From Cyanobacteria bacterium FACHB-471 (GTDB lineage Bacteria > Cyanobacteriota > Cyanobacteriia > Elainellales > Elainellaceae), in NCBI GenBank assembly GCA_014695345.1, contig JACJOC010000012.1:186001-250000 (forward strand): a stretch of DNA of 64,000 nucleotides. Direction: 5' to 3'. Both the position numbers and the translations under genes were made by a program. Numbering within the stretch: position 1 is the first letter of the stretch; every line of letters starts with the position of its first letter. The notes under the pieces are model-generated. The model searched no databases, was not told where the DNA came from, and saw nothing but the letters and a program-made list of their open reading frames with translations. Of the stretch, positions 9,334 through 11,355 are shown one piece after another.

Positions 9334-10080
9334 ATGAAGTCTGCATTTATGCCGCTGTTATCGCTACGCAAAGTTCGCTACGTTTTGCCTGTGGCGATCG
9401 CCACCACTCTACTCAGCTTACCGATGGTTTCGCCTGCTTTAGCTCAGGAACAGCTAACCAGAACAGTCACGGTAACGGGACGTGGTATTGAAAACATTCC
9501 AACTACGATTAGTCAGGTACGTTTGGGCGTTGAGGTTCAGGGCAGAACGGCTGAGGAGGTGCAGCAGGAGGCGGCACAACGCACAAATGCAGTTGTGGAA
9601 TTGCTGCGATCGCGCAATGTCGATAAACTCACCACCACCGGGATTTACCTCAGCCCTCAATACAACTTTGAAAATGGCACGCAAGAGTTAGTTGGCTATA
9701 CGGCTTCTAATACTGTGAGCTTTGAAATTTCGACTGAGCAAGCGGGAGACATTTTAGATGCCTCAGTCAATGCGGGTGCGACTCGGATTGATGGCATTAG
9801 CTTTACGGCTGAGGAGGAGGCAATCGCCACTGCCCAAAATCAGGCTTTGCGAGAGGCAACCCAGGAAGCTCAAGAACAGGCGGATGTAGTGCTTGGTGCA
9901 CTGGGACTAACCCGTGATGAAGTAGTGAATATTCAAGTGAATGGTGCAGTGCCCCCCATGCCTCCGATTCCATATGGCAGAGCGGCAAGTGAAGCAGTAG
10001 CTTTATCTGATGCACCAACCCCTGTTGTCGGTGGCGAACAGCAGGTCGAGGCCTCTGTAACGCTTCAGATTAGCTACTAG
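9334..10080 (+). CDS. Secreted SIMPL-domain (DUF541) protein
   Basis: A 248-residue exported protein with a typical signal peptide (hydrophobic stretch about 13-34, cleavage after SPALAQ). The mature part is a SIMPL/DUF541 domain: an opening VTVTGRGIENIPTTIS strand pair, LTTTGIYLSPQYNF, and a closing beta strand VEASVTLQISY. The family is periplasmic or outer-membrane-associated in bacteria and is linked with oxidative and envelope stress, though the biochemical role is not settled. In-frame starts exist at 9319 (GTG), 9328 and 9334; the last has GAGGAG 7 nt upstream and is preferred. Monocistronic; a shared hairpin separates it from the convergent flavoprotein gene. Confidence 0.9.
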   Translation: MKSAFMPLLSLRKVRYVLPVAIATTLLSLPMVSPALAQEQLTRTVTVTGRGIENIPTTISQVRLGVEVQGRTAEEVQQEAAQRTNAVVELLRSRNVDKLTTTGIYLSPQYNFENGTQELVGYTASNTVSFEISTEQAGDILDASVNAGATRIDGISFTAEEEAIATAQNQALREATQEAQEQADVVLGALGLTRDEVVNIQVNGAVPPMPPIPYGRAASEAVALSDAPTPVVGGEQQVEASVTLQISY

Positions 10081-10104
10081 GAGAATCAGGGGCTAGGGCT
10101 AGGG

Positions 10105-10132
10105 GTTGAGGGCTAACTCTCTAGCCCTCAAC
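10105..10132. terminator. Hairpin between convergent genes
   Basis: Arms GTTGAGGGCTA (10105-10115) and TAGCCCTCAAC (10122-10132) pair perfectly with a 6-nt loop. It lies between two converging genes and could serve both directions. Confidence 0.65.
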
Positions 10133-10137
10133 TCCAA

Positions 10138-10809
10138 TTAGAAGGCAATAAACTTCTCAGAGCGTACCTGGTTTGGGTTTGCTCCCATAGAGAGAATAAA
10201 TTCGTAGATTTCGGAAACGCGATCGCCCACTCCGCAGATGTCAATTTCAAACTGAGAGAGGTCTAGGTCTTGAGCAACTAGTGCTGATTCTGGGCTGCAG
10301 TGAATTGCTTCTACGTAGTGGAACGGTCGCCATGTTTGTTGGAGCGATCGCCAGTAGTCGTGATACGGCAAACAGTCTACTGTCTCCGGGTTCGCCAAGA
10401 CTAACCACACAGGTTGACTGTGACCGCAGTCTCGCAACCAATCAATTTGGCTCTTTAACGGTGCAATTCCTGACCCTTCAGCAACGTAGAGGCGAGGACG
10501 TTTTGGCAGTTGATTGAGCGTCATTAACCCGTAAGGACCTCGCACTGGAATTGTTGCCCCAATTTCTAGATCTTGTATGTAAGCAGAACTCCAGCCCACC
10601 CGAGATACGCAGAGCTCAACTGTTGGGCAGCGCTCCGGAGAAGAGGCGATCGAGTAGATTTTGCTAAACTTGCGTCCGTCTCGTTCAAACTTGGGCCAAA
10701 CGGATTGCCCAGGCAAAAACTTAAACTCTGGATTGCTTAGATGTACCCAAATAGATTTGATCGTCGGGGTAATGTAGCTAGAATCCAATATCGTAGCGAG
10801 ACAGTCCAT
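10138..10809 (-). CDS. FAD/NAD(P)-binding ferredoxin-reductase-like protein under B12 control
   Basis: A 223-residue flavoprotein of the ferredoxin-NADP reductase superfamily. FAD-binding part: LPGQSVW and the YSIASSP motif (Arg-x-Tyr-Ser equivalent, here KIYSIASSP); NAD(P)-binding part: VAEGSGIAPLKSQI and VWLVLANP, and CGVGDRV near the C-terminus. No 2Fe-2S Cys set is present. The frame stays open upstream to a GTG at 10977, but that stretch is a cobalamin riboswitch, so the true start is downstream: ATG 10809 gives the usual 8-residue lead before the first beta strand; ATG 10845 is the alternative. The riboswitch points to cobalamin metabolism, so reduction of a cobalt corrinoid or a related electron-transfer step is a reasonable but unproven role. 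Confidence 0.85.
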   Translation of the reverse strand: MDCLATILDSSYITPTIKSIWVHLSNPEFKFLPGQSVWPKFERDGRKFSKIYSIASSPERCPTVELCVSRVGWSSAYIQDLEIGATIPVRGPYGLMTLNQLPKRPRLYVAEGSGIAPLKSQIDWLRDCGHSQPVWLVLANPETVDCLPYHDYWRSLQQTWRPFHYVEAIHCSPESALVAQDLDLSQFEIDICGVGDRVSEIYEFILSMGANPNQVRSEKFIAF

Positions 10810-10823
10810 CGGTGCCGATGGAC
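10804..10823 (-). promoter_or_regulatory. Hairpin holding the flavoprotein start codon
   Basis: Arms GTCCATCGG and CCGATGGAC form a perfect 9-bp stem with a 2-nt loop in the transcript; the ATG of the favoured start (10809-10807) is inside the 3' arm. It lies about 65 nt after the cobalamin aptamer core, where an expression platform is expected, and suggests translational gating. A second stem with arms AACCCG/CGGGTT (10851-10869) precedes it. Function is inferred. Confidence 0.55.
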
Positions 10824-10887
10824 GTAAACATTCCAAACTTTGCATTCGCTTAACCCGTGCATCGCGGGTTTGACACAGAACAAATGC

Positions 10888-11085
10888 TTCAGATAGGCAT
10901 CCTGACTTAAAAGGAGCAATTAGACCGACTTGGGCTAATCCCTTTTTCACAGTTGCGGCACAGTGCCGGATTTTCACCGAACTTTCCCCAAGTTGAACTT
11001 CACGTTCAACTCTGGTTGGGCTGATTCCCCAACCAATCTAGAAGCCATTGGGGCATTCTAGCTCAAGTGGTTACCCCATGAAGTA
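10888..11085 (-). ncRNA. Cobalamin riboswitch
   Basis: On the minus strand the conserved core is unmistakable: GGGGAAAGTTCGG followed by GGTGAAAATCCGGCAC (10978-10963), then TGCCGCAACTGTGA, and at the 3' side AAGTCAGGATGCCTATCTG (10908-10890). These match the B12-box elements of adenosylcobalamin-type riboswitches. The 5' boundary is approximate; stems with arms GTTGAAC/GTTCAAC (10993-11011) and GGTTGGG/CCCAACC (11014-11034) belong to its accessory helices. It should lower expression of the downstream flavoprotein when cobalamin is plentiful. It overlaps the open frame of that gene, which would be mis-started by a simple ORF caller. Confidence 0.93.
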
Positions 11086-11145
11086 GAGTGATCAATCTTT
11101 ACTTGTAGCTGTCTATAGCAGTTCTTGCTTGAGTGGAAGACAAAG

Positions 11146-11190
11146 CACGGGATACAGCAATGGCGTGGTGCACTACTGCTGTATCCCGTG
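11146..11190. repeat. 14-bp hairpin in divergent region
   Basis: Arms CACGGGATACAGCA (11146-11159) and TGCTGTATCCCGTG (11177-11190) pair perfectly with a 17-nt loop. No gene ends here: the region lies between the leader of the B12-controlled gene and the start of the 60-residue gene. It may end a short unannotated transcript or fold in a leader. Confidence 0.55.
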
Positions 11191-11212
11191 TAATTGAGAA
11201 TTGCTTATAGAT

Positions 11213-11244
11213 GAAGGAGATTGAGCTTCGCTCCAATCTCCTTC
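11213..11244. repeat. Second hairpin in the same divergent region
   Basis: Arms GAAGGAGATTG and CAATCTCCTTC, extended inside by AGC/GCT, form a strong stem 22 bp after the previous hairpin and about 110 bp before the ATG at 11356. The two sit as a pair without a gene between them. Confidence 0.5.
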
Positions 11245-11355
11245 GTTATCTAGACAGCAGGTTGCTTAAGAAATTCCGATTTCAAGATGGACTCAAGGCA
11301 CCTGGATTAGAATCAGTCCAGTTACAGCAAACGAAACGTGTCTTAGATTTTCAAC

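Follow-up and report, generated by a model that had tools for sequence, protein, structure and literature searches.

The 64,000-nucleotide stretch of Cyanobacteria bacterium FACHB-471 analysed here (contig JACJOC010000012.1, positions 186,001 to 250,000; hereafter the window) carries on its minus strand a predicted cobalamin riboswitch in the leader of a gene for an FNR-fold flavoprotein, and the early codons of that gene form an unusual stem-loop. We consider it probable that the riboswitch represses translation of the gene through its switching hairpin, P13, and that the stem-loop in the coding sequence holds the 30S ribosomal subunit on the start codon. The aptamer, P13, the complementarity between the loops L5 and L13, the position of the start codon and the unusual coding stem-loop are supported by sequence evidence; the ligand, the direction of control and the role of the coding stem-loop are what we infer. 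The features concerned are as follows.

10875..11030 (-), cobalamin riboswitch aptamer of Rfam family RF00174 (cmscan 37.3 bits, gathering score 31.5).
10954..10963 (-), loop L5, CUGUGCCGCA, the putative kissing partner of L13, with 10960-10958 facing 10860-10858.
10852..10870 (-), P13, the putative switching hairpin and expression platform, with 6 base pairs and a 7-nucleotide loop (covariation; minimum free energy -7.7 kcal/mol).
10846..10977 (-), probably spurious 44-codon extension given by the longest open reading frame (ORF) call, which runs through the aptamer and P13.
10843..10845 (-), most likely start codon, ATG (MQSLECLRPSAPMDC...), from conservation in homologs, upstream stops and homology score.
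10804..10823 (-), coding stem-loop and candidate starting block, which spans +23 to +42 counted from ATG 10845 and contains the ATG of codon 13.
10138..10845 (-), gene for the 235-amino-acid FNR-fold flavoprotein (FAD_binding_6 plus NAD-binding domain), from Pfam, AlphaFold2 and Foldseek.

The cmscan search of the whole window returned a single match, to RF00174 at 11030-10875 (-), which scored above the gathering score of the family with an E-value of 7.2e-6 for the whole window and 3.9e-8 for 10780-11120 alone (341 bases). The first-pass annotation, which had been made from the letters alone, claimed a cobalamin riboswitch at this place and pointed to an Rfam covariance search as the way to check it; the search bears the claim out, and the B12-box motifs that it quoted were found at the positions given. 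A custom model, R1, scored 129.8 bits at 10988-10843, but as it was built from the window sequence and 16 homologs this score is not independent. Like other members of RF00174 (clan CL00101), the leader has the aptamer core, the B12 box, an L5-L13 kissing loop (recognised from sequence evidence) and a P13 expression platform, an architecture described for cobalamin riboswitches in passages of PMC9600662, whereas its outer helix fits the Rfam model poorly, with mismatch marks in the cmscan alignment. By these features the window riboswitch is a further member of an already known riboswitch kind, predicted to bind cobalamin or a related corrinoid. That it might be the only cobalamin riboswitch of its genome holds by the Rfam search, which found this one alone, but is contradicted by model R1, which gave three matches including it. 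A second cobalamin riboswitch of the same genome (L120, G000:C94:15011-15155, minus strand), which Rfam missed, precedes a gene with a CbiX domain.

A protein search revealed a homolog with an E-value of 1e-20 or lower in 27 of the 291 genomes of the class, own genome included, the nearest named relatives being Leptolyngbyaceae cyanobacteria with 86% identity. Directly upstream of the gene, 13 of the 26 other homolog loci have an Rfam cobalamin match (12 to RF00174 and one to RF01482), and in three further loci (L010, L016 and L019) the conserved core was recognised by eye and model R1 also gave a match, so that the riboswitch was observed in 17 of the 27 loci, the window included. The Rfam scan upstream of the homologs gave no match at L014, L015, L020, L021 and L023-L028, and in the last six, all of f14, a tRNA gene stands in place of the riboswitch. 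L014 and L015 have a strong Shine-Dalgarno (SD) sequence upstream instead of a riboswitch match (-7.1 and -9.5 kcal/mol), and a P13-like hairpin is still present by eye in L015, features that suggest loss of the switch. L022 was left out of the N-terminal protein alignment, its frame being interrupted in the assembly past the first 53 codons.

On the sequence evidence, it is P13 (AACCCG-CGATGCA-CGGGTT, 10870-10852), ending six bases 5' of ATG 10845, and not the stem at 10823-10804, that suits the riboswitch mechanism. In the 17-sequence alignment A1, P13 was paired in 95.1% of cells, a share that none of 500 shuffles equalled, and neither its 17 cells altered on both sides nor its covariation score was reached by any of the 500, while versions of the helix slid along the alignment paired in at most 43.1% of cells. 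The same hairpin was recovered unaided by RNAalifold. Between L5 and L13, the pairs U10960-A10858 and G10959-C10859 are kept in 17/17 homologs, and C10958-G10860 is retained in 13/17 and changed on both sides in L008.

Cyanobacterial cobalamin leaders divide into two types, in which L5 and L13 vary together, and comparison placed the window leader in one of them. A total of 147 loci with high-scoring matches (L042-L071 and L104-L220) were examined, and as their leaders are related no probability is given for the counts. The P13 loop was of type A (...GGUAC) in 61 of them and of type B (...GCAC) in 57, with another loop in 15, no P13 in 10, and no L5/B12 box by the search pattern in four. Among the leaders with a start call (35 of type A, 51 of type B and 11 others), L5 reads UCC throughout type A (35/35) and UGC in all but two leaders of type B (49/51), and the L5 and L13 types agree in 84 of the 86 leaders of these two types. 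In 31/35 type A leaders the distance from the end of P13 to the start codon is -6 to +4 bases, and in 48/51 of type B the start follows P13 by 6 to 21 bases. The window leader is of type B, sharing the UGC of L5 and the same kind of P13 upstream of the start with the type B cobalamin leaders of, for example, cbiX and TonB-receptor genes.

The start codon of the flavoprotein gene is most likely ATG 10845, upstream of the hairpin at 10823-10804, to judge from comparison of the homologs. Among the 17 riboswitch loci, the codon at this place is ATG in 15 and TTG in one (L012), while the ATG of L017 stands one codon further upstream. Eight of the 17 have an in-frame stop 0-3 codons before the conserved start, which follows the stop immediately in L003 and L004, and the N-terminus in most homologs reads MQSLxxLRxS. 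With the start taken at 10845 instead of 10809, the window's own protein gained in homology score (521.8 to 549.2 bits), as did its two nearest relatives (450.4 to 478.1 bits for the L003 homolog and 443.6 to 471.1 bits for the other). A naive ORF call that accepts ATG, GTG or TTG begins at GTG 10977, within the aptamer, and gives 279 amino acids; with ATG 10845 as the conserved start, this frame would be 44 residues too long. The first-pass annotation was thus right that the called frame overlaps the aptamer and carries a false extension, though its figure of about 56 residues was too large. Open frames at such aptamers are common, with at least 70 open codons already running at the B12 box in 15 of the 27 loci in which the real box was picked, out of 30 examined (L054, L059 and L062 being the others).

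The first-pass annotation had instead placed the start at ATG 10809, buried in and sequestered by the stem at 10823-10804. This stem is strong, the type A leaders do mostly place their start codons on or beside P13, and the loop of the coding hairpin, GGCAC, is complementary to L5 in the window, L003 and L004. However, that complementarity is confined to 3 of the 17 homologs, all of one genus, and GGCAC was rejected as L13. The place of 10809 holds a residue other than Met in 7/17 (L006, L007, L008, L010, L011, L013 and L016), in L019 the corresponding Met comes after an insertion, the 12 residues upstream of 10809 are conserved as protein, and the window L5 is of type B with a matching P13 further upstream. 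Together with the conserved start at 10845 and the upstream stops, which put the likely start outside the stem, this comparative evidence led us to reject ATG 10809, and sequestration of a start there is hardly credible. Some cobalamin riboswitches act through a terminator in the leader, and transcriptional control of this kind would be a known way of working; here it appears very unlikely, as no terminator-like site was found within 10080-11300 (1.1 expected), and early termination would, if the two are co-transcribed, silence the next gene, a co-directional gene of one cluster that follows the homolog in 10 of 13 relatives' loci (L031-L038, L040 and L041). Translational control, which had also been proposed from the sequence at first reading, is the likelier mode.

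Under translational control through P13, the riboswitch would repress translation of the flavoprotein when corrinoid cofactor is sufficient. The bound ligand would let L5 kiss the loop of P13, the docked P13 would abut the ribosome binding site and ATG 10845 and so block 30S binding, and with the ligand absent P13 would undock and translation would begin. In the centroid fold the start region is single-stranded, between P13 and the coding stem-loop. The predicted translational repression resembles that of the btuB riboswitch of E. coli, where, according to passages of PMC11162775, elements of the early coding sequence matter too. The window differs in that its target is a flavoprotein and not the BtuB transporter, and in that its coding element is a simple stem-loop that begins at about +20.

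The structure at 10823-10804 looks like a conserved one within the start of the gene, kept beyond the constraint of the amino acids. The inverted repeat GTCCATCGG/CCGATGGAC is located there, and of 200 dinucleotide shuffles 199 folded less well than its RNA (z -3.8). The repeat and strong fold behind the 9-base-pair stem of the first-pass annotation are therefore real, but the stem has 8 base pairs and a 4-nucleotide loop (with a ninth, two nucleotides would remain in the loop), lies in coding sequence and does not hold the likely start codon. In recoding tests with the amino acids fixed and the codons redrawn from the usage of the window, the stem-loop of the window gene gave z -3.1 to -4.0 against synonymous recodings. 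Codons 7-17 folded better than the recoded mean in 17/17 homologs, with p<0.05 in 12 of them, and codons 6-16 gave a mean z of -2.28 across the 17, with 11 below -1.5; at 22 other stretches along the same genes, of which neighbouring ones overlap, the mean z ranged from -0.88 to +0.70. Among 36 genes of the window, the flavoprotein gene (z -4.0) alone scored below -2 in this position, the next being -1.39. The helix formed by the window sequence was paired in 80.1% of the cells of alignment A1, against a mean of 76.1 for shuffles and at most 50.7% for slid versions.

These leaders are also weak in their SD sequences. The 17 homolog leaders had a mean SD pairing of -4.3 kcal/mol and a 4-nucleotide SD core in 4/17, whereas other type B or similar leaders had a mean of -6.9 kcal/mol and a 4-nucleotide core in 46/55, five of the 60 comparison leaders being dropped from this count because their start is less than 5 bases from P13. 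Those comparison genes also differ in showing no coding stem-loop trend, with a mean z of 0.08 at codon 6 and 6/60 below -2, so that the by-eye hint of a coding stem-loop as a general trait of type B cobalamin-riboswitch genes was unsupported in the 60 genes. The six below -2, none of them FNR genes, are L111, L124, L135, L142, L145 and L163; L111 and L145 are TonB-dependent receptors, and several others of the six start like signal peptides.

Because the SD sequence of these leaders is weak, the conserved stem-loop, just beyond the 30S footprint, probably holds the 30S subunit on the start codon. An activating stem-loop within the coding sequence of E. coli fepA and bamA was reportedly described by Jagodnik in 2017. 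According to passages of PMC12692685 and PMC7769764, initiation at fepA is activated by a "starting block", a stem-loop at around +20. The window stem-loop is likewise stable, close to +20 of its ORF, and leaves the start region free. It differs from those of fepA and bamA, where a small RNA has its target, in accompanying a riboswitch and a weak SD sequence. By this analogy we put forward 10823-10804 as a candidate fepA-like starting block, with activation as a hypothesis: the strength of the SD sequence did not correlate significantly with that of the stem-loop (rho -0.30, p 0.18, n=21), which leaves a trade-off within the gene family without statistical support, and in L020 and L021 the stem-loop occurs in the absence of a riboswitch (z -3.4 and -3.2).

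Both of these last results weigh against the proposed combination of a P13 switch with a starting block, and so do several others. The homologs are related, so counts across them are not independent. For P13, two of five measures, the pairs with double changes (3/6) and the further pair types, were not above shuffles (118/500 and 389/500, respectively), and the third L5-L13 pair, C10958-G10860, is broken in L006, L010 and L016. For the coding stem-loop, p exceeded 0.05 at codons 7-17 in five of the 17 homologs (L005, L006, L008, L010 and L011), six were not below z -1.5 at codons 6-16, the structure is weak or in a shifted register in genus f16 g70 (L006, L007, L008, L010, L011 and L016), the six f14 homologs gave no stem-loop signal in the recoding tests, and the 35 type A riboswitch genes themselves tended mildly towards early structure (mean z -0.60, five below -2).

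The coding stem-loop could also be a mere by-product of the amino acids RPS-x-x-MD, of repeats and of codon bias, which we regard as quite possible, if the less favoured view. The codons of R-P-S are apt to be complementary to those of M-D, and genus g70, with little excess structure, has CGATCGCC there, which we take to resemble the HIP1 repeat. Against this, the excess at codons 6-16 over the rest of the gene was measured with the amino acids fixed, L017 and L019 build the structure from different sequence, and the 5' edge of the predicted structure falls at +16 to +23 in 20 of 21 non-f14 homologs (at +29 in L006), although the lower bound was set by the method, the folded stretch having begun at +16. 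That the stem-loop is real but inhibitory, or the target of an RNase or a small RNA, rather than an activator, seems unlikely, as it begins where fepA-type stem-loops activate and leaves the start and the SD region free.

The flavoprotein itself has a Pfam match to FAD_binding_6 (PF00970, E 1.5e-6) over the cut-off and one to NAD_binding_1 (PF00175) below its cut-off, and no Fe-S (iron-sulphur) domain was among its Pfam hits. AlphaFold2 gave a mean pLDDT of 91.2 with an alignment of the 26 homologs, and the Foldseek matches were FNR-fold reductases, the best being 9nez_C, with E. coli Fre (1qfj_A) also among them at TM 0.76/0.79. The predicted FAD and NAD(P) domains, both of the FNR fold, place the protein in the FNR superfamily. 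As a hypothesis, a role as a cob(II)alamin or corrinoid reductase is plausible from the fold and the riboswitch control, for a protein to which no B12 function has been assigned. The own genome encodes MetH, an adenosylcobalamin-dependent ribonucleotide reductase, CbiM, HupE and genes of the CobA/CobO/BtuR family, and no match to MetE was found in it. A link to the B12-dependent ribonucleotide reductase was uninformative, with 245 of the 291 genomes over the cut-off. None of the five neighbour proteins scanned is a B12 gene product. Pfam identified two members of the downstream cluster as signal peptidase I, and the gene of this cluster was not seen in the window, L029, L030 or L039. Between a 433-amino-acid ORF (12882-11581) and the riboswitch lie two inverted repeats (-), at 11190-11146 and 11241-11216, CACGGGATACAGCA...TGCTGTATCCCGTG and GGAGATTGGAGC...GCTCAATCTCC, which are perhaps the 3' end of that ORF and were not flagged by the terminator scan of 10080-11300.

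Pfam scans of other riboswitch targets gave five CbiX proteins and two TonB-dependent receptors among seven type B targets, and, among 20 genes from 30 loci, four CbiM, five HupE, five MetE, one methyltransferase and one porin, with four genes without a hit. None of these 27 other targets had an FNR-type hit (four having no hit of any kind), in a sample biased to high-scoring leaders. Literature searches found no paper in the collection searched that joins cobalamin riboswitch, cyanobacteria and ferredoxin-NADP reductase, and, in titles and the starts of abstracts among the matches listed and in selected passages, nothing on this flavoprotein gene or on a riboswitch coupled to a starting block within the coding sequence.

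Taken to its furthest, the arrangement would be a two-sided module, with a riboswitch hairpin on the 5' side and, on the 3' side, a starting block replacing the SD sequence at a nearly SD-less start, which together control a hitherto unrecognised cyanobacterial FNR-fold corrinoid (cobalamin) reductase; we hold this tentatively and regard it as rather doubtful. If true, it would make initiation fully dependent on the docking state of P13. The wrong start, as set by the longest-ORF call and by the first-pass annotation, is now corrected, and an FNR-fold flavoprotein is an unusual addition to the targets of cobalamin riboswitches in cyanobacteria. Together with the coding stem-loop, the riboswitch makes a modest variation on a known kind, and the part most deserving experiment is the coding stem-loop after a riboswitch-controlled, weak-SD start, which offers a testable case of a structure within the coding sequence that may stand in for the Shine-Dalgarno sequence under riboswitch control.
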